Shown here: one piece after another, positions 852 to 13,235 of the stretch
Layout: each line of letters opens with the position of its first letter
Position numbering within the stretch: the stretch's first letter is position 1
NCBI GenBank assembly: GCA_026003195.1
Contig: BPGU01000001.1
Span: forward strand, 915,398-979,397
Length of the DNA: 64,000 nucleotides
Direction: 5' to 3'
Source of the DNA: Armatimonadota bacterium
GTDB taxonomy: Bacteria > Armatimonadota > HRBIN16
Program-made: the position numbers and the translations under genes
Notes under the pieces: generated by a model
The model's input: only the letters and a program-made list of their open reading frames with translations
Database searches by the model: none
Told to the model about the DNA's origin: nothing

Positions 852-1832
852 TTAGCCTGCGCTTGCGTCCTTGCCCTCAACAGCGTGGGGGAGCGTTAAC
901 AGGCTGCCGTTTCGCAACCTCGCACCTCTTGCCCAGTCGCTTGCGTTCATGCGGGGACGGCTTTCGGGTTGCACCTCCAGAAGCTGTAGCACCGTGCTCT
1001 CGCCACACGCCACAACGAGGGATTGCCTCTCGACGCGCAGCACCGTACCGGGGGGCTGGCTGGTGTGTTCTTCTGTGGGCAGGCACCTCCACACCTTCAC
1101 CCACTTGCCATTCCAGAAGAAGCCGGCGCCCGGTTTGGGAGACATCGCCCGCACGCGACACCACGTGCGCTGGGCGGTATCGTCCCAGTGGATGAAGCCG
1201 TCTTCGCGAGTGATGGGTGGGGCGTAGGTGGCAAGGGAGTGGTTTTGTGGTCGGGGAGACACCGTCCCCTGCTCCAGGGCACGCAGGGTTTCTATCAGCA
1301 GTTCTGCGCCCAGCTCTGCCAGCTTGACCTCTAAGGTCCCTGCGTCGTCTTCGGGCAGGATGGGGCAGGCTCGCTGGGAGAGGATGGGTCCCGTATCCAG
1401 TGTGGGTTCCATCTGCATGATGGTGACCCCCGTTTCGGTCTCGCCGTTCAGCAGTGCGTGCTGGATAGGAGCGGCGCCGCGATATTTGGGCAACAGCGAA
1501 GCGTGTACGTTGATTGCCCATCCGCTGGAGGGCATTTCCAGTAACGCTTTGGGCAGAATCTGCCCGAACGCCGCCACGACGAGCACATGGGGAGCAAGGG
1601 CGCGCGCCTGTTCGACGAACTCCGCACGACGTACCTTTTCCGGCGTCCAGACGGTAAGCCCCCGCTGCTCGGCGACACGACGTACCGGGGTAGGTTGCAG
1701 ACGTAGATGCCTGCCGGCAGGTCGGTCGGGCTGGGTGACCACGACCGGCAGTTCATACCCTGCCCGAAGCAGGGCAAGCAAAGAGGGCACGGCGAACTCG
1801 CTCGTGCCGAAAAAGAGCACTCGTCGCATCAT
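852..1832 (-). CDS. fmt: Methionyl-tRNA formyltransferase
   Basis: Transfers a formyl group from 10-formyl-THF to methionyl-tRNA for translation initiation. The 326-residue product has the usual family length. It begins MMRRVLFFGTSEFAVPSLLAL and carries the hallmark SLLPKYRGAAPIQ segment of the formyltransferase fold near residues 109-121, then a C-terminal OB-like tRNA-binding part. I chose the ATG at 1832 because it overlaps the def stop in an ATGA arrangement, which implies translational coupling. The frame remains open further upstream, but that part is antisense-like sequence inside def. Downstream of the phyH and def genes, so probably the last gene of that transcript. Confidence 0.95.
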   Translation of the reverse strand: MMRRVLFFGTSEFAVPSLLALLRAGYELPVVVTQPDRPAGRHLRLQPTPVRRVAEQRGLTVWTPEKVRRAEFVEQARALAPHVLVVAAFGQILPKALLEMPSSGWAINVHASLLPKYRGAAPIQHALLNGETETGVTIMQMEPTLDTGPILSQRACPILPEDDAGTLEVKLAELGAELLIETLRALEQGTVSPRPQNHSLATYAPPITREDGFIHWDDTAQRTWCRVRAMSPKPGAGFFWNGKWVKVWRCLPTEEHTSQPPGTVLRVERQSLVVACGESTVLQLLEVQPESRPRMNASDWARGARLRNGSLLTLPHAVEGKDASAG

Positions 1833-2383
1833 TTGCCTACGGCAACCGCTTCCCGCTCTTCCTTTTCCTCCTCTGTTACCCAGCGGAGCGTGGCGGGGTC
1901 GGCACGGTCGATGAACAGAATGCCGTCCAGATGGTCTACCTCGTGCTGGATGACCCGCGCAGTCAGACCTTCCGCTTTGAACTTGATGGTCTTGCCCTGC
2001 AGGTTCACTGCTTTCACCCATATCGTTTGCGCGCGCCGCACATTGCCCATCAGCCCGGGCAGGGAAAGGCATCCCTCCGGTGGCTCTATCTGCTCGCCCG
2101 ACATTTTGAGGATGACGGGATTGATGAGTGCGTGCACCTGTGGGTTCTGTTCGTCGGACATATCGGTATAAAGGAGAAGCCGGATGGATACCCCCACCTG
2201 TGGCGCAGCGAGACCGATGCCGTTGGCGTCTGACATCGCCTTACGCATGAACGACACCAGCTGGCGTATCTCCGGCGTGATACGTTTGACCGGTTCTGCC
2301 ACCTGCCTCAGGATGGGGTCCGGGTATTTCACGATTGGGTCGCCTTCCGCTCGCGGAAAGGGCGGTAGTTCCATCGCCATCAT
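1829..2383 (-). CDS. def: Peptide deformylase
   Basis: Removes the N-formyl group from new proteins. All three metal-site motifs are present: GIGLAAPQVG (residues 55-64), EGCLS with the metal-binding Cys at about 105, and QHEVDHLDG with His147, Glu148 and His151. Several in-frame ATGs occur close together. I use the one at 2383 because a GGAGG lies seven bases upstream (2391-2395), whereas the ATG at 2389 is too close to it. The product is 184 residues. It is coupled to fmt by a 4-base overlap, the classic def-fmt pair, and starts 19 bases after the phyH stop. Confidence 0.95.
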   Translation of the reverse strand: MMAMELPPFPRAEGDPIVKYPDPILRQVAEPVKRITPEIRQLVSFMRKAMSDANGIGLAAPQVGVSIRLLLYTDMSDEQNPQVHALINPVILKMSGEQIEPPEGCLSLPGLMGNVRRAQTIWVKAVNLQGKTIKFKAEGLTARVIQHEVDHLDGILFIDRADPATLRWVTEEEKEEREAVAVGK

Positions 2384-2402
2384 CCACATACCTCCGCGAG
2401 TA

Positions 2403-3392
2403 TTATACCCTGTTTGCCACCGTTTGCACGCTCTCCATCGTACCATCCTCCATACCCATCATACGGGGAGGCACGCCAGTGTCACCCTCTGCAGGTTCCA
2501 GGAGATGTACCGGTGTGCCGAACCGGGGCGTAGCGTACGGCAGGTGTGTGCTACCACGCGCCAGAATGTGCAGGTAGTTCGCACTGTTGCCCTCGTACGG
2601 CTCGCCATGATTCCAAGGCACCCACGAGCGGGCATTGCAGTAGTGGCAAACATACGAGCGGCGGAAGCGGTCTGTCGTGCGGTTCGGGTAGGAGCGATGC
2701 AGGATGTGTCCATGGAAAAAGAGCACGTCGCCCGGCTGCATCGGCACGGGTATTGGGTCGGGATACTTGCGCACCACTTTGGTCAGGGTGTTCACCTCGT
2801 CGTCCAGATGGCTGACGTTCTGCACCCGGAACAGGTCTTCAAACACGCCCTCCGTGTGGACGAGACCGTAAGGATGGTCTGGTGGGTAGATGGGTTCGCA
2901 GTGGGAGCCGGGTATCACCCACAGGCAGCCATTTTGCTCGTCGGCGACATCCAGCGCCATCCACGCGCCGATGAGAGTGTCGGGATAGGTGGTGATATAG
3001 TAGGAATCCTGATGCCAGCCCTGTCCGCCCAAGCCTGGAGGGTTGAAAAAAAGCATACTTTGCAGGGCAAGCACGTCGGGACCGATTAACGCCTCCAGTA
3101 CATCCAGCACGCGCGGGTGTAGCAGTCCCCATTCCGCCGTCGCGTCGATGCGGTGCAGCTGGTGGATGCGCGTGTGCGTTTTGAAGACTGCCTCCAGCGG
3201 CGCCTTTTCGGACTGCTCCTGCATCGGCGTGGGCTGGCGACGGCTCTCCGCCCAGTCCAGCAGGCGTTGCACATCCTCTTTGGGGAGCAGTCCCTCTACC
3301 TTCAGGTAACCGTGCCTCTGGTAGTGCACATACTCTTCTACCTTCACGCGATACCTGTCCGGTCGCTCCGCTGCTTTGGGTATGTATGCCAT
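2403..3392 (-). CDS. Phytanoyl-CoA dioxygenase (PhyH) family protein
   Basis: A 329-residue Fe(II)/2-oxoglutarate dioxygenase of the PhyH fold. The iron-binding triad is visible: the HxD pair in GWHQDSYY (His127, Asp129) and the distal His in GHILHRSYPN (about His232). An Arg-Ser that would bind 2-oxoglutarate follows. The start at 3392 has GGAGG six bases upstream. The frame is open further upstream but lacks a ribosome site there. The substrate cannot be read from sequence. Bacterial relatives hydroxylate small molecules, and in this phylum many PhyH copies occur. It has its own promoter and lies ahead of def-fmt. Confidence 0.85.
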   Translation of the reverse strand: MAYIPKAAERPDRYRVKVEEYVHYQRHGYLKVEGLLPKEDVQRLLDWAESRRQPTPMQEQSEKAPLEAVFKTHTRIHQLHRIDATAEWGLLHPRVLDVLEALIGPDVLALQSMLFFNPPGLGGQGWHQDSYYITTYPDTLIGAWMALDVADEQNGCLWVIPGSHCEPIYPPDHPYGLVHTEGVFEDLFRVQNVSHLDDEVNTLTKVVRKYPDPIPVPMQPGDVLFFHGHILHRSYPNRTTDRFRRSYVCHYCNARSWVPWNHGEPYEGNSANYLHILARGSTHLPYATPRFGTPVHLLEPAEGDTGVPPRMMGMEDGTMESVQTVANRV

Positions 3393-3508: not shown

Positions 3509-3517
3509 GATCCCTCT
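3509..3517 (+). repeat. Target-site duplication, left copy
   Basis: GATCCCTCT directly abuts the left inverted repeat of the insertion sequence. An identical 9-mer abuts the right end at 4542-4550. Confidence 0.9.
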
Positions 3518-4541
3518 GAGGCTGTTCGAAAAATCGGTGAGTATCGGGTATAAAACATACTATGAAACACACACACTTCAGACAAACTACCCTCGCCACC
3601 ATACGGGTACGCACCATTTACAGCCTTGTCCTGCGCTTTTGCCAACTCCACCCTCTCCCCAAACGACGCGGACGACCCTGCAAATACTCCGAAGCCCTCA
3701 TCCTCACCCTCTGGCTGCTTGCCGTGCGCGAAAACGCCTCCTACCGACGCCTGCTTTTTGCGCTTGCCCCCGAAATCCTGCCCGACCACCCCCTGCCTGC
3801 CTTAGGCACGCTCGCCTACCGCTTGCAGCATCTTGCAGACAAACGCCTGCAACAACTGCTCCATTGGCTTGCCCAGCAGGGCATGGCGTCAGAGACACTG
3901 ACCTGTGAAACGCCGTGTGTGTTTGTGGATGGCACGGGCGTGGGATATGCCTCGCCGTTTTTCGCGCAGTATTTGCGAGGGGCACAGATACGTCAGCAGC
4001 GTTCGCATGTGAAGGTGGTGGCGTTGGTGTATTGGCAGGGGGGTCGGGCGTGGGTGATAGGGTTATCGTGTGGGGCGGCGTATGCGGATGAGGGGCGGCT
4101 GTTGGGGGAGTGGGTGGAGCGGTATGGTCGTGGTGGGTTGGGGTCTGGCACTTTGTTGGTGGGAGACAGGTTGTATGGGTATCGGGCGCGATTGTTGAAG
4201 CAGTTGGAGGAGGCGGGTTGGTTGCCTGTGGCGCGTGTGGAGGCAGGGTTGCATCAGCAGGTGCGTGCGGATGCGCGGTTGCGTGCGCGTTTGCGTGCGG
4301 AGGTGTATGGTTGGGCGTTGGGGGAGCGTTATCGGATAGAGCAGGTGTTTGGGAGCGTGAAGAGTGCGTATGGGAGCGTGTGGCGAGCGCGTTCGTGGGA
4401 GGGTGCGCGGGTATGGGTGTGGGGGATGTTTGTGCTATGGAACATGGTGGGTTTGGTGCGTGTGCTTGGAGATGGTTCTGATGGTTTTATTGTATGTTGT
4501 GTGTGGGTGAGGGGGGGCTGGGTGATTTTTCGAACACCCTC
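3518..4541 (+). mobile_element. Complete insertion sequence, 1,024 bp, with 18-bp imperfect terminal inverted repeats
   Basis: Left end GAGGCTGTTCGAAAAATC (3518-3535) and the reverse complement of the right end (4524-4541) differ at one base. Both ends are flanked by the same 9-bp direct repeat GATCCCTCT, so the limits are certain and the insertion is recent enough to keep a perfect duplication. The element holds one transposase. The 9-bp duplication and about 1-kb size fit IS4/IS5-superfamily elements, but I do not assign a family. The first half of the + strand is C-rich and the second half strongly G-rich. Confidence 0.93.
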
Positions 4542-4599
4542 GATCCCTCTTGACAACCTGTGCACTCTGTTTTATGCTATATCCAGCATTCTACCGTAA
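3562..4599 (+). CDS. DDE transposase of the insertion sequence
   Basis: Catalyses movement of the element. The acidic triad can be placed: Asp in FVDGTGVGY (about residue 122), Asp in LVGDRLYGYR (about 203) and Glu in RIEQVFGSVK, the last with the R-x3-E-x6-K spacing seen in the IS4/IS5 superfamily. A helix-turn-helix-like N-terminal part (KRRGRPCKYSEALI) precedes it. The frame has no stop codon inside the element: it runs through the right inverted repeat at 4541 and ends at a TAA at 4597 in host DNA, adding about 19 foreign residues. No good ribosome site precedes the ATG. Confidence 0.88.
   Translation: MKHTHFRQTTLATIRVRTIYSLVLRFCQLHPLPKRRGRPCKYSEALILTLWLLAVRENASYRRLLFALAPEILPDHPLPALGTLAYRLQHLADKRLQQLLHWLAQQGMASETLTCETPCVFVDGTGVGYASPFFAQYLRGAQIRQQRSHVKVVALVYWQGGRAWVIGLSCGAAYADEGRLLGEWVERYGRGGLGSGTLLVGDRLYGYRARLLKQLEEAGWLPVARVEAGLHQQVRADARLRARLRAEVYGWALGERYRIEQVFGSVKSAYGSVWRARSWEGARVWVWGMFVLWNMVGLVRVLGDGSDGFIVCCVWVRGGWVIFRTPSIPLDNLCTLFYAISSILP
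4542..4550 (+). repeat. Target-site duplication, right copy
   Basis: Second copy of GATCCCTCT. Its last T is also the first T of the TTGACA -35 box of the next gene, so the duplication restored the box. Confidence 0.9.
4550..4578 (+). promoter_or_regulatory. Promoter of the LuxR-HTH gene
   Basis: Perfect TTGACA, 17 bp, then TATGCT. The same promoter with the same spacing and the shared string CTTGACAACC is found at 10679-10707 in front of a decayed copy of the gene. Confidence 0.75.
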
Positions 4600-4611
4600 G
4601 AGGTATCCTGC

Positions 4612-5004
4612 ATGGCTACCGTCTGGCTGATATGTCCTGACGCAGCGTTGCGAGAACGGCTGTTGCGGTGCTTACGTGATGGGGAGCAGGTGACGGTATG
4701 CGTGAAGCCGTGCGTTGCGGATGCGGTGGTGGTAGTGCCTCCTGTGTTGACGCCGGCTCAGGTAGAGACATTGCAGGCGTATGTGGACACGGGCAGTGCG
4801 CGTGAGGCGGCGAAGCGCAGGTGCTGTTCGGAGCAGACGGTTCGGCGTCATCTGGCGGCGGCGCGAGCGCGGGTGAAGGCGCAGAACGTGGCTCAGCTGG
4901 TGCACGTGGCGTGGATGTTGGGAGTATTAACCGCTCCGTCTAGTACCAATTGGGTACAAAAATGGCAAAAATTGACTATTGACACGGGGGGGGGGACAGA
5001 GTAG
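4612..5004 (+). CDS. Small transcription regulator with LuxR-type helix-turn-helix
   Basis: A 130-residue protein. The first 45 residues are an unrecognised valine-rich segment. They are followed by a LuxR/GerE-like DNA-binding helix-turn-helix from about LTPAQVETLQ to VRRHLAAARARVKAQN (residues 46-92), where ARE-AAKRRCCSEQTVRRH matches the recognition helix. There is no receiver or ligand domain. AGAGG lies eight bases before the ATG. Its last residues are encoded across the G tract of the next promoter, so G-tract length changes would alter its C-terminus. Immediately upstream of the envelope cassette, so a local regulator is the natural inference. A deleted copy lies at about 10730-10830. 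Confidence 0.7.
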   Translation: MATVWLICPDAALRERLLRCLRDGEQVTVCVKPCVADAVVVVPPVLTPAQVETLQAYVDTGSAREAAKRRCCSEQTVRRHLAAARARVKAQNVAQLVHVAWMLGVLTAPSSTNWVQKWQKLTIDTGGGTE

Positions 5005-5007
5005 AAT
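4979..5007 (+). promoter_or_regulatory. Promoter of the envelope cassette with a G10 tract in the spacer
   Basis: TTGACA (4979-4984) and TAGAAT (5002-5007) are separated by exactly 17 bp, and 10 of those bases are one uninterrupted run of G (4986-4995). Slippage in such a tract would move the spacer away from 17 and change promoter strength, a known phase-variation mechanism in other bacteria. Whether it happens here is inference. Confidence 0.7.
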
Positions 5008-5044
5008 AGAGGTAGAAAACTCTAAAAAGGAGGTGTCAGTATCC

Positions 5045-5467
5045 ATGTCTCGATGGAGCAGTCGCAACATGTTCGTAAGCGGAGCCGTGGTTGCTGTGGG
5101 AGCTTTATCTTTAGCCCTGTTGTCAAGCGTTGTAGCAGCAAGAGACCCTATAGCTACTCCTCCGCCTCCACGAACAATTGAACAAAGTTTCTGTTCAAAC
5201 AACTACTTTACCTGTCGTGACATTGCGTGTGCTGATGCGATAGGAGGCGAGGTTCGGCTACCGGGTTATGGAGCTGCTGTCCGGGCGGGTAGTGGGAAGT
5301 TCTCTAGCACTCCCACCAAAATGTACACCTGTGAGCCGAGCTCCTTGTGGAAGCATACCTGCACGGAACGTCCTGTTCAGTGTGGCGAGTATGCGTTCTT
5401 CACTTCTTCAGGCTGTGCAGGAGCGCCCATCTTCACGCGTCCGGGGTACCAAATCTCGTGCCGGTAG
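5045..5467 (+). CDS. Small secreted cysteine-rich protein
   Basis: Not a family I recognise. The 140-residue product has a clear Sec signal: MSRWSSRNMF, then a hydrophobic segment about residues 9-30 ending VVAARD. After a proline-rich linker (IATPPPPRT) the mature domain of about 90 residues contains eight cysteines (FCSNN, TCRD, ACAD, YTCE, HTCTE, VQCGE, GCAG, SC), enough for four disulfides. The ATG at 5045 follows AAGGAGG with a slightly long spacing. First gene after the G-tract promoter, six bases before the next gene. I infer an exported, disulfide-stabilised surface or signalling protein. Confidence 0.6.
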   Translation: MSRWSSRNMFVSGAVVAVGALSLALLSSVVAARDPIATPPPPRTIEQSFCSNNYFTCRDIACADAIGGEVRLPGYGAAVRAGSGKFSSTPTKMYTCEPSSLWKHTCTERPVQCGEYAFFTSSGCAGAPIFTRPGYQISCR

Positions 5468-5473
5468 TGCCAG

Positions 5474-6460
5474 ATGCGAAGGTGCTTTACGCTCTCGATC
5501 TGCCTGGTATGGATATGGGTGCGGGGCGGTTGGGCTTCGCCCGTACCCTCTCCTGCTTTGCTCCTTGAAGCGTGGCAACAACTAGATACGGATTTCCAGA
5601 AGACTGTACGCTCGTACAAACTGGAGGGCATGGCCAGCAAAAAGCCGCACGAGGCGGACCTCCCCGCTAGCACGTTCAGATGGCGTGTCTGGCGCGATGG
5701 GGAGCGGTTTTTGTGGGAATATACAGTCAACGACACGCTCAGCGGTGGAAGAAGATATGCTTACAGCTACGATGGGGTTCGCTACGACTGCTACGTTGGC
5801 CCCTCCGCCCAAGGCTTCATTTACAAGACCGTAGAGGATCTGCCCCCATGCGAAAATGCGTTTACTGGTTTGTATCCCTTTGATATTCCCCATCTCTGGC
5901 AAAAGCCGCTGGCTGGTGGCAACTGGCAGCAAGTTCTACCTTACTATGTAACATTACTTCAGAATGTTTCTGCTTTGCACGTCAGCAGAGACGAGCATGC
6001 TCAGTCTTACATTCTTCTTCTTTCGCAGGAGGGCAAACGCAGGTTGGGATGGTTACCCGATGAGGTGCACTTTCGAGTGGAACGGGGAAGGTTCGTGCCA
6101 GTGCGCTTTATCCTGCGAGACAAAGCAGGTGGACGGTTGACGCAGACGGTGTTTGAAATCACTTCTGCACAGTGGCATAACGAGTGCTGGCTTCCTTCCG
6201 GTTACCGTTGTACATGGGTGGATGTGGCAAGCCGCCGGGTATTCATGGAAATGAATGCCACCATTCGGATGAGCGACATAAACCAACCTATTTCTGCGGC
6301 GCATTTCCGAGTTAACTTCCCAGCGGGAACACTTGTCACAGAGCAAGGAGGACAGGAATGGGTTGTTCGCGGCGTATCGATTTGGAATCTCTGGTGGGTT
6401 GTTCCTGTAATCCTTGTTGTGATGGTGGTGTTCTGGCTAGCAAAGCGATTACGTCGGTAA
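5474..6460 (+). CDS. Exported protein with C-terminal membrane anchor, function unknown
   Basis: 328 residues. The N-terminus has a signal peptide (about residues 1-22, ending GGWAS). The C-terminus has one strong transmembrane helix (NLWWVVPVILVVMVVFWLA) followed by KRLRR, so most of the protein faces outwards. The extracytoplasmic part is rich in beta-strand-like segments (FRWRVWRDGERFLWEY, RRYAYSYDGVRYD), which loosely resembles LolA-like lipoprotein-sorting folds. That resemblance is weak and I do not claim it. Three cysteines are scattered in the domain. Part of the same transcript as the Cys-rich gene and the DUF1573-like gene. Confidence 0.55.
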   Translation: MRRCFTLSICLVWIWVRGGWASPVPSPALLLEAWQQLDTDFQKTVRSYKLEGMASKKPHEADLPASTFRWRVWRDGERFLWEYTVNDTLSGGRRYAYSYDGVRYDCYVGPSAQGFIYKTVEDLPPCENAFTGLYPFDIPHLWQKPLAGGNWQQVLPYYVTLLQNVSALHVSRDEHAQSYILLLSQEGKRRLGWLPDEVHFRVERGRFVPVRFILRDKAGGRLTQTVFEITSAQWHNECWLPSGYRCTWVDVASRRVFMEMNATIRMSDINQPISAAHFRVNFPAGTLVTEQGGQEWVVRGVSIWNLWWVVPVILVVMVVFWLAKRLRR

Positions 6461-6475
6461 AGGAAGAAGATCGCG

Positions 6476-7501
6476 ATGTCCGCGGCAAGGAATGAGCGAA
6501 GGTGGCTGGTGTGGGGGTGTGTTTTAGGACTGATCGTACTCACATTACTAGCAGTTCTGTATAGCCATTCCTTACCTCCTGCTTTCAGGAGAGTGTGGTC
6601 GCTGCAGTTTGTCCCCTCTCGGCTTGTGCTGCCTGCGGATCTGCCATCCATTCACGAGACAAGCGTTTTGTTATGCAATCGTGGGACCAAGGATGAGCAC
6701 ATCCGGCTTGGCTCTTGTTGCGGAGTGAACATACAGGGAGAACTAGAACGATACGTGGGAAAGGGGCATTGTGTCAGGATACCGTTGAGCGTTGAGGTAA
6801 GATCGCCGGGGGTGTATCGCGGGGCAATATTCGTTTACGTGCCAGGCGTGCAGTCTCCTGTGACAGCCTTGCCTATTATGGCACAAGCGTATGAGAGCGT
6901 CTTTGCATCCACAGATACCAGACGTTCGCTACATTTGCCCGCACTGGTTCGCAAAGCCCCTGGTGATGCGAGTGGGGAGGCGTGCGTCACACTGTCTGTT
7001 CATAGCGGTTTTGGGATAGAGCGCATTGTATCTCCAGCAGACTGGCTATCGGTAAGTTGGCGCAAGCGGGATACGGTGGTCGACGTTTGCGCAAAGGCGT
7101 TGCCATCGGCACCTGAGGGAAAGTTCAACCTTGACCTCTTACTGATTTACAGATGTGGCAAGCGCTCTGGACGTGACTACATCAGGATTTTCGGAGAGGT
7201 AGTGTCTTTAGTATACGTCCACCCAAGCAGGCTGTCTTTCGGTGTCGTGTCGTTGCGGCAACAGCGACCGGCGTCGAAAGAGGTACAGATCATCCTGCGT
7301 GGTAGTAGAGGCAAACCGTTGAGTTTTAGGGCAACTTTCGCTGGTTGCACCACACGAGCGAAACGGTTAAAGCCGGGGGTATATGTTGTGGAGATCCAGT
7401 TCATTCCTAAACGATTGGGGGAGATACGAGGATATGTGCAGTGTCGTCAAGGAGACGACATCATCTACCTACTGCCCATAAGCGCGCTAGTACAACCATA
7501 G
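6476..7501 (+). CDS. Membrane-anchored protein with DUF1573-like (Ig/MSP-type) domains
   Basis: 341 residues. One N-terminal transmembrane segment (WGCVLGLIVLTLLAVLY, about residues 13-29) is followed by an extracytoplasmic region. Near the end, VHPSRLSFGVVSL followed by EVQIILRGSRGKPLSF is the pattern of DUF1573-type beta-sandwich domains, and the first part (FVPSRLVLPADLPSIHETSVLLCNRG) looks like another copy. Such domains are usually protein- or glycan-binding modules in the periplasm. AGGAAGAAG precedes the ATG. Sixteen bases after the previous gene and ten before the next, so clearly one operon. Confidence 0.6.
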   Translation: MSAARNERRWLVWGCVLGLIVLTLLAVLYSHSLPPAFRRVWSLQFVPSRLVLPADLPSIHETSVLLCNRGTKDEHIRLGSCCGVNIQGELERYVGKGHCVRIPLSVEVRSPGVYRGAIFVYVPGVQSPVTALPIMAQAYESVFASTDTRRSLHLPALVRKAPGDASGEACVTLSVHSGFGIERIVSPADWLSVSWRKRDTVVDVCAKALPSAPEGKFNLDLLLIYRCGKRSGRDYIRIFGEVVSLVYVHPSRLSFGVVSLRQQRPASKEVQIILRGSRGKPLSFRATFAGCTTRAKRLKPGVYVVEIQFIPKRLGEIRGYVQCRQGDDIIYLLPISALVQP

Positions 7502-7510
7502 GAGAGGCAG

Positions 7511-9451
7511 ATGGGTCGGGCGTTAGTCGCATTGATGTTGGTGGCAGTTCAGGTGTTATGGCTGTTTCCTACGTCTGGCGCTGCACAGTGGCTAGCCAGA
7601 TACACGGTTGGCAATGCCGAACAGCTCTACAGTAGTTACGGAACGTACCTTGCTTTGTGGGGCTGCTGGGCGCTGTTAGCATGGCGCATCCTCTCACTTC
7701 GTGTCGATACTCCTGCAGCGGGTTGCTTTCGGCGTGTGCTGACAGCATTCCCGTTGCTGCTAATATGGGATGGTTTGTTTTCAAGACATCCTTCTTACCC
7801 TGTGGAAGCAGCAAATGGGTTGCTTGCTTGTTGGGTCAGTGCAGCTGTTGTTTCCCTGCTTGCTACCAAGGTCCCACGCCACATCACCGATGGGTGCATC
7901 CTGATGGTGCTCGCCTCGGAATCACTATTTGCCCTACACTCATGGGATACCGAACGCCGTATCATGGGTGGTTTTTCGAGCCCTAACCTCTTCTACCCAC
8001 TGATGTTGTATGGAATGCTATGCAGCACTGAGTACGTCCTCCGCGGGCAGCAAGTGTATGACCTGGTATGGGGCATACTGGGGTGCTTGTTTGCTACAGC
8101 GCTTGGCGCCTCTGGAAGCCGTGGTGGTATGCTGGCAGGTATCGTCGCGGTATGCTGGATGATGTACAAGGTGCTGTCACGTGCTCGTTCCCATAACGAG
8201 GTTCCATTGGTGCGGTGGAAAGTGGTTACCCTGCTGGCTCTCTTAGTGCCGTTGGCAATCGGCTGGCATCTTCGCCAAGAGCAGGTAGGAGTAACCACCA
8301 TCCTGGATCGCTCGGTACACGCACGCCCCATTTTATGGTGGACAGGTCTACGGGTCGCCTGGGCATCCCATGGGCTGGGATGTGGCATTGCTAACATGAG
8401 TGCTCAGGAACAGTTGAATGACCTGCGGACGATGGTGCTGGGCTCGGGAAACATGGAGCCTAAGAACTTGCTTGTAGCGATGGTAGCCATATACGGAATG
8501 CCCGGATTATGGTACGTTCTATCTCTTATTGCGAAATCTTGGCGATTTTTTGGGCAGCAAAACGATGAACAACAATTAGCTGGCACCGCCATGTTGCTTG
8601 CACTGCTGGTTGCTGGTGCAGCGGACACCCCCATACTTATTGCCGAACGCTTAGCGCCTACCTTCTTGTGGTTGCAATGGATGATGATCAGCGTAAGCCC
8701 GCGTCCATCCATAGTAGCAGGTTTGGGCTTTGTGCGGAGTCGCACGTTGCGGTACAGAGTAGTGTTTACAGCTCTTACCGCAGTGTTGCTAACGATAGGT
8801 AGCTTTGTGGGCTATACTTACCGGGAGGCAAGGAGTTACCAGCCCTCCTTGCAGCGACTGCGAACGCTCTCAACGACCCCGTTGTCAGCCTATCCGCGCA
8901 CATTGGTTCACCTGCTTATTGAGCGCGAAGACAAGCGGTTTTGGGATCATGCGGGTATTGACTGGCGCGCCATGCACAGGGCGCTTCGTACCAACATTCG
9001 CACACTGCAGTTTGCACAAGGCGGAAGCACTATCACCCAACAGATGGTGCGTAGTATGTTGCTGGACCCCCGCTTCGCCAAAAGCAAGAGCTTGACGCGA
9101 AAAGCAATAGAACTATGGCTAGCTACTTGGGCGGAGCGTGAGCTGGGCAAGCAGAAAATACTGGAACTGTACTTGCAGTATGCATTCCGGTTGGACCTGC
9201 CTCCGGAGCGAATAGGTTTCGGGGCAATAGCTCGATACTACTTTGGCAAGCCCATTGGTCAGCTCTCACCAGATGAATGTGCGGTGTTGGTAGGCTGGCT
9301 CTCAGCACCCCCAGTAAAAGGTATAGATTGGTATCGTACGATTGCTTTGCGGAACGCAACGTTGTCTGGACTTGACCGTGAGGCATCCCCGTATTATGGA
9401 CAGCCTGTGCGGATACGGGTAGGATGCTTTGCGCAAAAGCAGAGGGAGTAA
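7511..9451 (+). CDS. Fusion of an O-antigen ligase/polymerase-like membrane domain with a GT51 peptidoglycan transglycosylase
   Basis: 646 residues. Residues 1-435 are polytopic, with about ten hydrophobic segments, and carry O-antigen ligase/Wzy signatures: GGFSSPNLFYPL (153-164), GASGSRGGMLAG (199-210) and HARPILWWTGL...GLGCG (270-292). EPKNLL (316-321) sits where ligases usually have a His-Asn pair. Residues 440-640 are a complete GT51 transglycosylase: EREDKRFWDHAGID (471-484, catalytic Glu473), QGGSTITQQ (503-511), TRKAIELWLA...ERELGK and GAIARYYFGK (571-580). No transpeptidase domain follows. The GGAGAGG site and tight spacing place it in the cassette. Role inferred: makes or ligates a lipid-linked glycan at the membrane. 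Confidence 0.85.
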   Translation: MGRALVALMLVAVQVLWLFPTSGAAQWLARYTVGNAEQLYSSYGTYLALWGCWALLAWRILSLRVDTPAAGCFRRVLTAFPLLLIWDGLFSRHPSYPVEAANGLLACWVSAAVVSLLATKVPRHITDGCILMVLASESLFALHSWDTERRIMGGFSSPNLFYPLMLYGMLCSTEYVLRGQQVYDLVWGILGCLFATALGASGSRGGMLAGIVAVCWMMYKVLSRARSHNEVPLVRWKVVTLLALLVPLAIGWHLRQEQVGVTTILDRSVHARPILWWTGLRVAWASHGLGCGIANMSAQEQLNDLRTMVLGSGNMEPKNLLVAMVAIYGMPGLWYVLSLIAKSWRFFGQQNDEQQLAGTAMLLALLVAGAADTPILIAERLAPTFLWLQWMMISVSPRPSIVAGLGFVRSRTLRYRVVFTALTAVLLTIGSFVGYTYREARSYQPSLQRLRTLSTTPLSAYPRTLVHLLIEREDKRFWDHAGIDWRAMHRALRTNIRTLQFAQGGSTITQQMVRSMLLDPRFAKSKSLTRKAIELWLATWAERELGKQKILELYLQYAFRLDLPPERIGFGAIARYYFGKPIGQLSPDECAVLVGWLSAPPVKGIDWYRTIALRNATLSGLDREASPYYGQPVRIRVGCFAQKQRE

Positions 9452-9452
9452 C

Positions 9453-10484
9453 ATGAGGCGATTTACTCTCGATACCACTATGATGGCAATAGTCGTTATG
9501 ACGCTCCTGGCACACTATCTTGTACACTACACTGCCCAAAAGCAGGTTCCTAAGAAGGAATATCTGTGGCGAGCGATTGTTTGTGTGACAGAACACTCGA
9601 CCTCCCCAAGACTCACCGCGGTATGGTGGGTCCAGGCCGGGTTAAGAGAGGCAGACGTGGTGCAAATACCTGTACAAGCACTTATTGGATATCAAACAGC
9701 AGAGAAGACGCCAACTTTAGCGTCGTTATACCAAACACCACACTTTGTAAACTATTTGCGCCGCTTTACAAGATATGCGCTTGGCTTGCCTGCACCAAAG
9801 GTTATAGAGTGTCCATTAGAGGCTCTATTAGGCCATACTGTCGGGCAGGCTCCTGTGTCCTTCTTTATACCGGAAAATACAATGCTCGTTCTGGATCACA
9901 AGAGTGTCTTCTACGGGCGTGGAACACATCGTTTGAGCATATCGGAACTGCGTGAGCTGTGGAGTGGTTACTCCTTTTGGGGTGGTGAATGGGGAAGGTT
10001 GCAAAGGCAAAGGCTCATCCTGCAAACCATTGTGCATCTCACTGCCTCCAACGAGGAACTACCCGAGCCATTGCTGTGGCTTGCATATCTACGGTATTCT
10101 CAAGTGCACTACTTCACGGTGCCGGGCAGCCGAGGCAACAGCTGGATGGGGCCCCATGATGACGTTATCCGGATATCACCTGCGTCTTTCCAGGCAACGG
10201 CACGCCGTCTCAGAGAAAAAGACAAGCGTTCAGATGTGCGAGTGCGCTTGTGCTTTTCGCCAAAGGTTCCCTTAGCCACCCAGCAGCAAATCACCGAAGA
10301 GATTTTCGATATGGGATTCTCCGTGTACGTGGACGACGGATCTTCTGGATGTCGAACAGGATCGATACGTGCCATAGAGAACCTACCGGGAGATGTGAAA
10401 CAGCTGCAGGCAGTCGTGCAAAGGCACGCTCAATGGGGTGGCTACTGCCAGCAGGGAGCGGAGGTTCTTATCATGGTGCAGTAA
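9453..10484 (+). CDS. Divergent LytR-CpsA-Psr (LCP) family protein with LytR_C-like tail
   Basis: 343 residues. One N-terminal membrane helix (MMAIVVMTLLAHYLVHY, residues 10-26). The middle resembles LCP phosphotransferases that attach glycopolymers to peptidoglycan: SFFIPENTMLVLDHK, RGTHRLSISELRELWSGY, and GGEWGRLQRQRLIL (177-190), equivalent to the conserved D-x-R-x-x-RQ segment. The first LCP motif (an R-x-D and IPRD-like stretch) is eroded: here it reads DVVQIPVQAL. The tail (DVRVRLCFSPKVPLATQQQI to DMGFSVYVDDG) fits a LytR_C domain. AGAGGGAG precedes the ATG at 9453, one base after the previous stop. Last gene of the cassette. Confidence 0.65.
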   Translation: MRRFTLDTTMMAIVVMTLLAHYLVHYTAQKQVPKKEYLWRAIVCVTEHSTSPRLTAVWWVQAGLREADVVQIPVQALIGYQTAEKTPTLASLYQTPHFVNYLRRFTRYALGLPAPKVIECPLEALLGHTVGQAPVSFFIPENTMLVLDHKSVFYGRGTHRLSISELRELWSGYSFWGGEWGRLQRQRLILQTIVHLTASNEELPEPLLWLAYLRYSQVHYFTVPGSRGNSWMGPHDDVIRISPASFQATARRLREKDKRSDVRVRLCFSPKVPLATQQQITEEIFDMGFSVYVDDGSSGCRTGSIRAIENLPGDVKQLQAVVQRHAQWGGYCQQGAEVLIMVQ

Positions 10485-10514
10485 GCGCGCAGAGTAGCGC
10501 CGCAGCGCGTCGGC

Positions 10515-10557
10515 AAGATACCGTACCTCCTCGCCTACGCGTGTCATGGGAGAAACG
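10515..10557 (+). pseudogene. Remnant of the 3' end of a DUF1559 pilin-like gene
   Basis: CCTCGCCTACGCGTGTCATGG followed by an AAACGATAAA-like string is a diverged copy of 11408-11435, the end of the pilin-like gene there (encoding GTPRPRV and stop). It marks where a similar gene once ended, just after the cassette. The rest of 10485-10678 shows nothing I recognise. Confidence 0.5.
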
Positions 10558-10678
10558 ATAAAAACCCAAACTCGGGGGATAGAGGATGCAAGCGCTGCGG
10601 GAGAAGATAGTGTTTGTGTGGCAGAGGTAAGGTGTAGTCACCCAGCCACTTCCACTGGCAAACGTTAGGGGGGGCTCC

Positions 10679-10707
10679 TTGACAACCCATGTCCCTTGTT
10701 TTATGCT
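10679..10707 (+). promoter_or_regulatory. Duplicate of the LuxR-HTH gene promoter
   Basis: TTGACA, 17 bp, TATGCT, identical in boxes and spacing to 4550-4578. A GGCAAAC string lies 15 bases upstream. At the first locus the same string (3494-3500) lies 16 bases upstream once the insertion sequence is removed. Confidence 0.65.
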
Positions 10708-10729
10708 GGATGCAATCTTGCATGTGACC

Positions 10730-10830
10730 TGGCGGCGGCTTGTGCACAGCTGGTGCAGGGGGCGTGGGTATTGGACTTATTAACCGCTGCGTATAGCAAA
10801 AATTTACCAAAAAATGGCAAAAATATACTA
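10730..10830 (+). pseudogene. Internally deleted remnant of the LuxR-HTH gene
   Basis: After the duplicated promoter, CTGGCGGCGG jumps directly to CAGCTGGTGCA, GCGTGG, TATTAACCGCTGCGT and AAAATGGCAAAAAT. These strings match 4851-4860 and 4895-4970 of the intact gene in the same order. About 250 bases of the coding region are missing and an ATG is followed at once by TGA. Confidence 0.65.
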
Positions 10831-11423
10831 CGGTGTGTCTGAACAACCTCAAGCAGATAGGACAAGCCATAGTTATGTACCGACAGGATTGGGATGGCGC
10901 AGACCCGCAGAGAGGGGTGCGTCTGACCCTGGCGCAGTTGGGGCTTCCGCCCTGGGACACATGGTTTGGCTGCAACCCTCCGCAGGGATACACCGACCCG
11001 CTTTGCGCATATATCCAGAACAAGCAAGTGTGGTGGTGCCCCAGCCGACATGCCGACCCTCGTTGGGTAGATGCACCGGGGACAGTCAGCTCCTACAGCT
11101 TCGCCTGGATTGGCATCAAGCGTCCTTTTGAGGAAGCCATCGCACTACAGCCAGACCTACCATTGGTCATGTGCAAGTTCCACGACCCTGTCTGGTGGAG
11201 CTCCGAGCCCATTTTTGATAAGGACTACCGCCTCCTAGGCGTCTCGGCGGACGGAACGGTTCGGTGGTGGAGACGAACGACCTTGCGTCCTATCTTATGG
11301 ACACGTCCATGAGGCTTGCCACCGGCTGCGCCGACGGTGGGGTGGACTGGCGACTTCTCACTTGGTCCGTTCACGGATGAGTTCATCTTTCCACCGGCAG
11401 GAACGCCTCGCCCCCGCGTGTAA
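10831..11423 (+). pseudogene. Truncated DUF1559 (pilin-like, H-X9-DG) gene
   Basis: CLNNLKQIGQAIVMYRQD is the segment that follows the N-terminal prepilin helix in DUF1559 proteins. That helix and the cleavage site are absent, because the frame joins directly to the regulator remnant. The frame then encodes a normal pilin-like body (YIQNKQVWWCPSR, LLGVSADGTVRW) to a TGA at 11310. After it the same frame continues with GLPPAAPTVGWTGDF and ends GTPRPRV at 11423. An N-terminal deletion plus a premature stop makes it a pseudogene. Intact relatives are secreted, pseudopilin-like proteins common in Armatimonadetes and Planctomycetes. Confidence 0.7.
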
Positions 11424-11461
11424 TGGAAAAACGACAAAGCACAACAGATGGAGGGTAAGCG

Positions 11462-12446
11462 ATGGCGGTTAAGATTATCGGACCCGAGCTGCCAAATATC
11501 CCCTGGGAAGAGAAGCCCAAAGGCTATTCGGGCGTGATGTGGCGTTACAGCAAGAACCCGATTATCCCTCGTAACCTGCTGCCTACTTCCAACAGCATCT
11601 TCAACAGCGCGGTGGTGGCGTACGGCAGCGAGTTTCGCGGCGTCTTCCGCTGCGATGATACCCGTCGCTACATGCAGCTGCATGCGGGGCGCAGTCAGGA
11701 CGGCATCCACTGGGAAATTAACCCCGAGCGCATTCACTTCGTGGGCGAAGCCGCGCAGGAGCTGGGCTGGGAGTACGGCTACGACCCGCGCGTGGTGTGG
11801 ATTGAAGACCGCTACTGGGTGACCTGGTGCAACGGCTATCACGGACCCACCATCGGCGTGGCGTGGACACAGGATTTTGAGACCTTCTACCAGCTGGAGA
11901 ACGCCTTCCTGCCCTACAATCGCAACGGTGTGCTGTTCCCGCGCAAGATCAACGGCAAGTACGCCATGCTCAGCCGACCTAGCGATCGCGGGACATACTC
12001 CGTGGGGCGACATGTTCTACAGCGAAAGTCCTGACATGATACACTGGGGCTGCCATCGCTTTGTGATGGCGCCTGCGGGAGGCTGGCAGAGCACCAAAAT
12101 CGGCGCGGGTCCCGTGCCGATTGAGACCACCGAGGGCTGGCTGCTCATCTACCACGGCGTGCTCACCTCGTGCAACGGCTTCGTGTACAGCGCGGGAGCG
12201 GCGTTGCTGGACCTGGACAAGCCGTGGAAGGTGATTGCCCGCACGGCACCGTACATCATCTCGCCGCAGGAGCTGTACGAGTGCGTGGGCGACGTGCCCA
12301 ACGTGGTGTTCCCCTGCGCTGCGCTGGCGGACTCGGCGACGGGACGCATCGCGGTGTACTATGGCGCAGCGGATACGGTGACAGGGCTCGCCTTCTGCCA
12401 TGTGGAGGAGCTGGTGGAGTTCACGAAACAGAACTCGCTGGTGTAA
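11462..12446 (+). CDS. Glycoside hydrolase family 130 (beta-mannoside phosphorylase-like), frameshifted
   Basis: Two frames together make one GH130 protein. The first runs [12 protein letters not shown] through [17 protein letters not shown] to MLSRPSDRG. The second continues [19 protein letters not shown], then [19 protein letters not shown], a GH130 hallmark, to the stop at 12446. The switch is at GGG 11990-11992. Removing one G restores the frame, so a sequencing or assembly error is as likely as mutation. The family breaks beta-1,4-mannosides by phosphorolysis. GGAGGGTAAGCG precedes the ATG. It stands alone between the pilin remnant and a toxin-antitoxin pair. Confidence 0.85.
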
Positions 12447-12531: not shown

Positions 12532-12771
12532 ATGATGTCTGTCAAGGTCATTGAAGCCGAATACGACGGCAAGGTGCTGATACCCAAGGAACCGCTGGAT
12601 TTGCCAGTGGGTGCTCGTGTGCAGCTGAGTATCCGTCTGGGGCAGGAGGTGGAAGAACGCTTAAGAAGACTGCGTGCTCTGTGGAAATATGCGGAGGAAC
12701 ATCCTGTGGCTGCCCCTTCTGTCGACGATGAAGCCTTACGACGTGATAACCTTTACGAGGAACGTCTGTGA
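12532..12771 (+). CDS. Antitoxin of the DUF104 (AF2212-like) family
   Basis: 79 residues. The N-terminal 32 residues (VKVIEAEYDGKVLIPKEPLD, then LPVGARVQLSI) are the swapped-hairpin DNA-binding fold typical of DUF104 antitoxins. The charged C-terminal helix would bind the toxin. GGAGGTGA lies at the proper distance from the ATG at 12532. A second in-frame ATG at 12535 is also possible. The stop overlaps the PIN toxin start (GTGA). Such pairs usually repress their own promoter. Confidence 0.8.
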   Translation: MMSVKVIEAEYDGKVLIPKEPLDLPVGARVQLSIRLGQEVEERLRRLRALWKYAEEHPVAAPSVDDEALRRDNLYEERL

Positions 12772-13235
12772 AAGCAATATTGCTAGATACCAGCGTGCTT
12801 CTACGCGAGATTCATGTCCATGACGCCTATCATCAAACAGTGGTCTATTCGGTGGAGAAACTGGTAAGCACGGGCTGGATGACTTATGTTGCTCCACAGT
12901 GCCTCCAAGAATACTGGGCGGTCGCCACTCGCCCTCCTGAAGCGCGCGGGGGGTTGGGGTTGAGTGTGGAGAGAGCGGCAGAGGATATTGAGCAAATCAT
13001 TTCTGCCCATGATGTCTTGGTTGAAAACGCCGAGATCTTTCAAGTGTGGCGAAGAGTAGTGATTGACTACCGGGTGCTCGGTCGGCAGGTGTGGGATGCG
13101 CGTATTGCTGCCATTATGAAACTACATGGCATATCACATCTTCTCACTTTCAATACGCAGGACTTCCGTCGGTTTGGCTTCCTGAAAGCGTGGTCGCCTC
13201 AGGATGTGGAGCAACTCCTCGAGAACGAAGATTAG
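12768..13235 (+). CDS. PIN-domain toxin (VapC-like ribonuclease)
   Basis: 155 residues starting with GTG inside the antitoxin stop. PIN acidic residues are visible: Asp8 in ILLDTSVLL, a Glu in CLQEYWAV (about 44) and Asp in VWDARIAAIM (about 104), with NTQDF near 119 completing the metal site. The family cuts tRNA or other RNA. The antitoxin is present and intact. The stop overlaps the convergent DUF1611 stop by two bases. Confidence 0.85.
   Translation: MKAILLDTSVLLREIHVHDAYHQTVVYSVEKLVSTGWMTYVAPQCLQEYWAVATRPPEARGGLGLSVERAAEDIEQIISAHDVLVENAEIFQVWRRVVIDYRVLGRQVWDARIAAIMKLHGISHLLTFNTQDFRRFGFLKAWSPQDVEQLLENED

Follow-up and report, generated by a model that had tools for sequence, protein, structure and literature searches.

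Phase variation of promoters and the shuffling of gene cores are best known from host-adapted pathogens, in which they are explained by immune pressure. Poly-G switches are known from some pathogens; in the phylum Armatimonadota we found no report of one, and a partial search of the literature joining Armatimonadetes with phase variation returned no paper, which is weak evidence of novelty. In the Neisseria porA promoter, a poly-G tract lies between the -10 and -35 boxes, and transcription is shut off when the 17-bp spacing is reduced (PMC7864442). Treponema pallidum, like the bacterium studied here, has several such loci per genome, with poly-G at the promoters of envelope-protein genes, the tpr genes (PMC7864442).

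We analyzed a 64-kb stretch of an Armatimonadota genome, hereafter the window, against a set of ten genomes of its genus (Armatimonadota, Chthonomonadia relatives), in which G000 is the window's own genome. An earlier note on this DNA had read 10485-11423 as the trace of an ancestral tandem of regulator and pilin-like genes, in which a cassette replaced the first pilin gene. We find instead that the interval 10485-11312 holds the remnant of further unit copies. Our main reading, to which we give a probability of roughly 0.7, is that these are copies of a multi-copy unit that forms tandems and collapses by deletion, and for which we infer promoter switching and the swapping of cores. The more interesting fact would then lie just outside 10485-11423, in a recombining, probably phase-variable operon family, of whose tandem-and-collapse dynamics the relic is a fossil.

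Unit anatomy and the relic

The features of the intact type-A unit and of the relic that follows it are, with strand in brackets:

3518-4541 (+): insertion sequence that separates the upstream leader of the unit from the regulator promoter, with a DDE_Tnp_1 transposase at 3562-4599 (PF01609, E 2.5e-12)
4550-4578 (+): regulator promoter, TTGACA-N17-TATGCT, conserved among units and repeated at 10678-10707
4612-5004 (+): HTH (LuxR/GerE-like) regulator gene, the 5' conserved end of the unit (GerE 22.6 bits)
4979-5007 (+): cassette promoter, TTGACA-(C, G10 at 4986-4995, GACAGAG = 17 bp)-TAGAAT, with poly-G in the spacer
5045-5467 (+): core gene 1, Cys-rich protein with a signal segment
5474-6460 (+): core gene 2, 328-aa protein with a signal segment and a C-terminal TM segment; homologues in every aligned core
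6476-7501 (+): core gene 3, 341-aa protein with a membrane anchor, resembling DUF1573 in position and appearance; homologues in loci L094 and L095
7511-9451 (+): WaaL/O-antigen-ligase-like membrane half fused to a GT51 peptidoglycan transglycosylase domain (PF00912, E 1.2e-38)
9453-10484 (+): 343-aa protein of a family without name, closing the type-A cassette (34-39% to its homologues in G002 and G008)
10529-10562 (+): probably a decayed copy of the host flank 5' of GH130, rather than a DUF1559 tail (score 36, shuffle maximum 23-30)
10592-10630 (+): relic, final 13 codons of a type-B WaaL-GT51 gene, counting the stop (identity to L010 and L120, 90-92%)
10678-10707 (+): relic, the second unit's regulator promoter (local alignment with shuffles)
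10744-10830 (+): relic, 3' end of a second regulator gene, up to just before the cassette -35 box (alignment)
10831-11312 (+): relic, DUF1559 fragment without pilin-like N-terminus (PF07596 14.0 bits, cut-off 23.3)
11389-11461 (+): host flank 5' of GH130, conserved whether the site is bare or occupied

The general layout of a unit is a leader, the HTH gene, the cassette promoter, a variable core, a conserved GT51 end and a DUF1559 gene, the core being made up of the 8-Cys secreted protein, MucB-like and DUF1573-like proteins and the WaaL half. Type A, found in the window and in G006, G002 and G008, encodes the Cys-rich, MucB-like, DUF1573-like, WaaL-GT51 and 343-aa proteins in this order, and in G002 and G008 a DUF1559 gene follows. 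Type B (L010, L091, L092 and others) encodes the Cys-rich protein or DUF1573, then the MucB-like, WaaL-GT51 and DUF1559 proteins, and a third kind (L011, L012 and L093) has the regulator followed by a single long secreted protein. The regulator gene occurs at four places in G000 and at five in G006 and is present in most other genomes of the genus; a regulator scan of named genomes gave no match, and an alignment scan with WaaL-GT51 gave long matches in four genus records, its other matches covering only or mainly the GT51 domain. A repeat of about 75-90 bp is interspersed in spacers (L010 7902-7991; L090 1577-1658 and 5020-5113; L092 7786-7962) and also lies directly 3' of the GT51 gene in some units.

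The GerE match of the regulator falls just under the cut-off of 23.5 bits, and a Pfam profile scan found neither a receiver nor a ligand domain. Its three further copies in this genome are 85-93% identical to it at the DNA level, with dN/dS of 0.24-0.84 between copies. The regulator is broken in four loci (L012, L090, L092 and L093), indicating that it is not needed in cis. Among the core proteins, the GT51 domain passes its curated score (PF00912, 132.7 bits, cut-off 27), the WaaL-like half reaches 27.3 bits with PF04932 (E 3.6e-6, cut-off 31.7), the L010 counterpart of core gene 3 matches PF07610 (DUF1573), and the 328-aa protein, without a Pfam family, is MucB/LolA-like by general look. Pfam and NCBIfam hold no family for the Cys-rich protein or for the 343-aa protein, whose predicted model has a pLDDT of 61. 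Eight cysteines are invariant in the six aligned Cys-rich homologues, drawn from types A and B, which have little else in common; the predicted fold (pLDDT 79) gave no Foldseek match at E 0.001, and a resemblance to the PBP5-type C-terminal domain was rejected as too weak (best VIA-align Z 2.6). A partial literature search joining DUF1573 with a cysteine-rich peptide found no paper. By their signal or membrane segments, the core proteins look envelope-directed, and our best guess, held loosely, is of a variable protein, secreted or displayed at the surface, that has assembly partners of its own.

The relic repeats parts of the intact unit. The regulator promoter at 4549-4578 recurs at 10678-10707 (local alignment score 34, shuffle mean 13.5, maximum 27), bearing out the recurrence first noticed at 10679-10707; as a putative promoter, this repeat is short and modestly above shuffles. 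The 3' end of the regulator, 4891-4978, is repeated at 10744-10830 (score 79, shuffle mean 16, maximum 28; blastn 78%, E about 1e-13), so that an alignment of 4540-4985 with 10660-10835 does give significant similarity beyond the promoter box. Of the regulator strings noted at 10730-10830, those from 10744 onward hold (78%), whereas the 11-bp match near 10730 scores 22 against a shuffle maximum of 24 and is no better than chance. About 310 bp of leader and regulator gene are absent from the relic. The order of what is left is that of the first unit, promoter, regulator 3' end and then DUF1559 sequence, the last as a fragment devoid of the pilin-like N-terminus. The homology was said to break at 4980, exactly where the cassette promoter begins; the match indeed ends at 4978, shortly 5' of the cassette -35 box, but other intact units match the first unit through the cassette promoter to about 5034, and the break is the relic's own deletion joint.

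Upstream of the relic regulator lies a scrap that the earlier note had missed. The 39 bases at 10592-10630 are the GT51 end of a different unit, with matches in L010 of this genome (92% to 7863-7899) and L120 of G009 (90% to 6100-6062). The scraps thus run WaaL-GT51 end, regulator start, regulator end, DUF1559 end, as expected for a tandem; they include parts of two unit joints, and we take the relic to derive from a tandem of regulator and cassette units and not of regulator and pilin.

The DUF1559 fragment at 10831-11312 falls below the curated PF07596 score and lacks a prepilin-like N-terminus, making it a relative of DUF1559 proteins and no intact member, whereas the DUF1559 protein encoded by the usual 3' gene of the unit, to which it is 32% identical, has a prepilin-type N-terminus and the H-X9-DG end. 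It stops at 11310-11312, the point at which a relative in G008 also ends; a parent unit for this type of DUF1559 was looked for among the relatives and not found. The 4.6-Mb genome G000 has 73 DUF1559-profile matches, so that the link to the unit is a feature of one subgroup. Elsewhere, in locus L128 (1381-2294, C13 of G003), the gene right after another DUF1559 gene encodes a small Cys-rich secreted protein of a different kind, a pair that suggests a wider link between DUF1559 and Cys-rich proteins.

A DUF1559 tail had also been placed just after the cassette, at 10515-10557. The similarity sought between 10485-10560 and 11380-11440 is real, 10529-10562 matching 11406-11438, but the sequence is host flank of GH130 and not DUF1559: 11389-11461 is intergenic, and the same flank precedes GH130 at the bare site of G001 and in G009, G003, G005 and G004, irrespective of what fills the site. 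As 10529-10562 resembles solely the G000/G006 version of the flank (score 36 versus 13-22 for the flanks of other genomes), it would be a lineage-specific duplicate or, less likely, a chance match. Beyond the flank, the GH130 gene of the window (11462-12446) is split into two frames, 11462-12034 and 11877-12446, with a one-base difference from G006 near 12000, either a frameshift or a sequencing error; beside it, at 12532-13235, a small gene overlaps a PIN-like gene in what by eye is a toxin-antitoxin-like layout.

The poly-G cassette promoter

Sixteen unit promoters consist of TTGAC(A/G), a C- or CGC-led run of 7-11 G's, a short stretch and TAGAAT, the -10 box being TATAAT in the units of G008. 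The spacing between the -35 and -10 boxes ranges from 14 to 18, with run lengths that differ between loci and species, and is 17, the optimal value, in the window. The exact promoter pattern has 15 matches in the ten genomes, all at units, and none in a reversed control, and within the 64 kb of the window no G or C run other than that at 4986-4995 reaches eight. Two orthologous loci, L012 and L093, which are 95% identical, carry runs of 10 and 11. As in porA, the homopolymer lies between the -35 and -10 boxes and its length varies among otherwise near-identical promoters, which leads us to infer that the cassettes are phase-variable; slippage in the poly-G spacer would raise or lower the expression of each unit.

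We also weighed an ordinary family of paralogous operons subject to gene conversion, in which nothing switches, the poly-G being either a constant part of the promoter or a product of assembly. Run lengths that differ between loci and species fit such a family, paralogues are homogenised anyway, and homopolymer assembly errors are a possible source of the differences. A fixed feature sits less well with a G run that every intact unit has in this spacer and that hardly occurs outside the units, with run lengths that move the spacing across the 17-bp optimum, and with the difference between the orthologous L012 and L093; we consider it a serious but unlikely explanation. A separate idea, that the poly-G switches the reading frame and thereby joins regulator and Cys-rich protein in one fusion, was dropped: this frame is open in several units of G000 and G006 and stopped in L094 and L095, so we do not claim it.

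Proposed exchange, gain and loss of units

The units form a mosaic of conserved ends and unlike cores. When the two units of L091 are compared with each other, or L092 with L091, the regulator and promoter are 87-100% identical; across the core the figure is about 40% (bins of 37-50% and one of 60%), and inside the GT51 domain it climbs back to 87-100%, a level that for L092 versus L091 is kept through DUF1559. The G+C content of the core is 0.53, against about 0.60 in the regulator and flanks. The loci at C4 of G000 and C3 of G006 share a downstream flank at 93% and carry one unit and two units, respectively, with different cores. For DUF1559, dS is 0.016 between the copies of two G006 loci and 0.31 between G000 and G006 orthologues, showing that copies within a genome are being homogenised. 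Near-identical ends would allow homologous recombination between loci and lineages to swap the unlike cores, and the set varied in this way may serve the envelope or secretion: 8-Cys secreted proteins, MucB- and DUF1573-like proteins, a WaaL-GT51 glycan polymerase and pseudopilin-like DUF1559 proteins.

From about 5000 to 11500, some 6.5 kb, the identity of the window to G006 reaches 100.0% on a background of 84-90%; the tract breaks off within the regulator gene on one side and at the GH130 start on the other. Identity is 79-90% in outlying stretches of the locus and rises once more, to 98-100%, at 1500-3000. We read the 100.0% tract as a probable recent exchange between the G000 and G006 lineages, and the relic, whose sequence is identical in G006, belonged to it. 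A chimeric assembly or mixed source material might produce the tract and the mosaic with no recombination between lineages, given that the estimated contamination of G000 is 4.82% and that several genomes of the genus are metagenome assemblies. Such a chimera is possible but would have to lie within a 1.3-Mb contig, between flanks diverged on both sides and next to an insertion sequence specific to G000, and the unit architecture occurs independently in G002, G008 and G009, making this account improbable.

Comparison of the site between the PhyH and GH130 genes supports gain and loss of whole units. The relative without the cassette that had been called for exists, as the two genes are adjacent at the bare site of G001. 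The gap in G004 contains a scar consisting of the last codons of a unit DUF1559 gene (PITQDW, stop), G009 has a type-B unit on two contigs, and G003 has a regulator at the start and a unit DUF1559 gene at the end, also on two contigs. At another locus of G001, a unit has collapsed completely: regulator codon 21 runs straight into DUF1559 codon 203, a short microhomology marking the joint, and the flanks match G006. The window relic looks like the same kind of event. On our main reading, the PhyH-GH130 site would formerly have held a type-B unit, whose GT51 end was left at 10592-10630, and another regulator copy (10678-10830) would have been fused by deletion to the DUF1559 fragment, at a site that today also carries the intact type-A unit. 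At L012 and L093, a dehydrogenase-like piece of 585 bp is duplicated (99%) on both sides of the regulator and long secreted protein (L012 2191-2774 and 5237-5820; L093 3905-4488 and 6951-7516), as if the unit were set inside a duplicated flank.

These comparisons also bear on the proposal of an ancestral tandem of regulator and pilin-like gene. A relic regulator is followed by a DUF1559 fragment and DUF1559 genes do belong to units, but at the intact loci examined a cassette or the gene for a long secreted protein comes next after the regulator, DUF1559 stands solely at the 3' end, and none has a DUF1559 gene directly after the regulator in the cassette's place. The supposed tail after the cassette is host flank, and a GT51 end 5' of the relic regulator is not predicted by this proposal. 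The idea of a tandem survives, in the two joints of the relic and in the intact tandem of G006 C3 (L091), where HTH, Cys-rich, MucB-like and WaaL-GT51 genes occur twice before a DUF1559 gene; L091 weakens the pairing of regulator with pilin, as its unit is a regulator plus a cassette with a 3' DUF1559. The cassette does come and go, as the bare site in G001, the scar in G004 and the different cassette in G009 attest, but its insertion into a pilin gene finds no support. Replacement of a first pilin gene is therefore very doubtful, and the evidence points to exchange of cores between conserved ends, together with deletion.

The insertion sequence at 3518-4541 has inverted ends GAGG(C/G)TGTTCGAAAAATC and is flanked by a 9-bp direct repeat, GATCCCTCT, at 3509-3517 and 4542-4550. 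In L090 of G006, a short element upstream of the regulator (about 4995-5181) resembles a non-autonomous relative of this insertion sequence; its ends are GAGGGTGTTCGAA / TTCGAACACCCTC-like, and the 9-bp repeat AGTCTGTGC stands on both sides of it. PADLOC gave no defence-system match at E 0.01. That the unit is itself mobile, as a transposon or as integron-like or phage-like cargo, with the relic as an earlier insertion, is most improbable: the site is occupied in some genomes and bare in others, copies are many per genome and the unit in the window has an insertion sequence immediately upstream, but that element is separate, with its own 9-bp repeat, and is missing from the same locus in G006, the upstream end of units differs between loci, no transposase, integrase or relaxase was found among the unit genes by Pfam and NCBIfam scans of their proteins, and no regulator homologue was found on plasmids or phages.

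Comparison with known systems

We give an even chance to the broader proposal that these units are an undescribed family of contingency loci, in which poly-G operons with a linked HTH gene encode hypervariable 8-Cys proteins and their envelope and glycan-polymerase partners, and in which cores are exchanged within and between lineages. If true, it raises the question of what selects for variation in an environmental genus (phage, kin recognition or competition), and a little-studied phylum gains a directly testable system of surface variation.

With porA of Neisseria meningitidis, the units share a poly-G run between the -35 and -10 boxes, a run length that shifts the spacing around the 17-bp optimum and the control of an envelope protein (PMC7864442). 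They differ in that one promoter recurs before several operons, whose cores are unlike and to which an HTH gene is linked, in an environmental Armatimonadota that is no pathogen and in which the switching would be deduced from promoter comparison. In Treponema pallidum, the run of tprL lies in the -10 region and not in the spacer, and the tpr genes are unrelated to those found here (PMC7864442). With the PF07596 family (DUF1559, prepilin-like, H-X9-DG), the 3' gene of the unit shares both the N-terminus and the end, and the window fragment is a different, truncated member. A related gene content is that of an operon in another Armatimonadota family (L250 of G184), which has DUF1573, a Cys-rich secreted protein (by eye) and MucB-like proteins in one row with a WaaL-GT51 fusion (42%) and DUF1559 (67%). 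Unlike the units described here, it has no such HTH gene, shows no poly-G promoter upstream and has a sigma-factor-like gene (by eye) in that place, which suggests that the HTH gene and the switch may be additions made within the genus.
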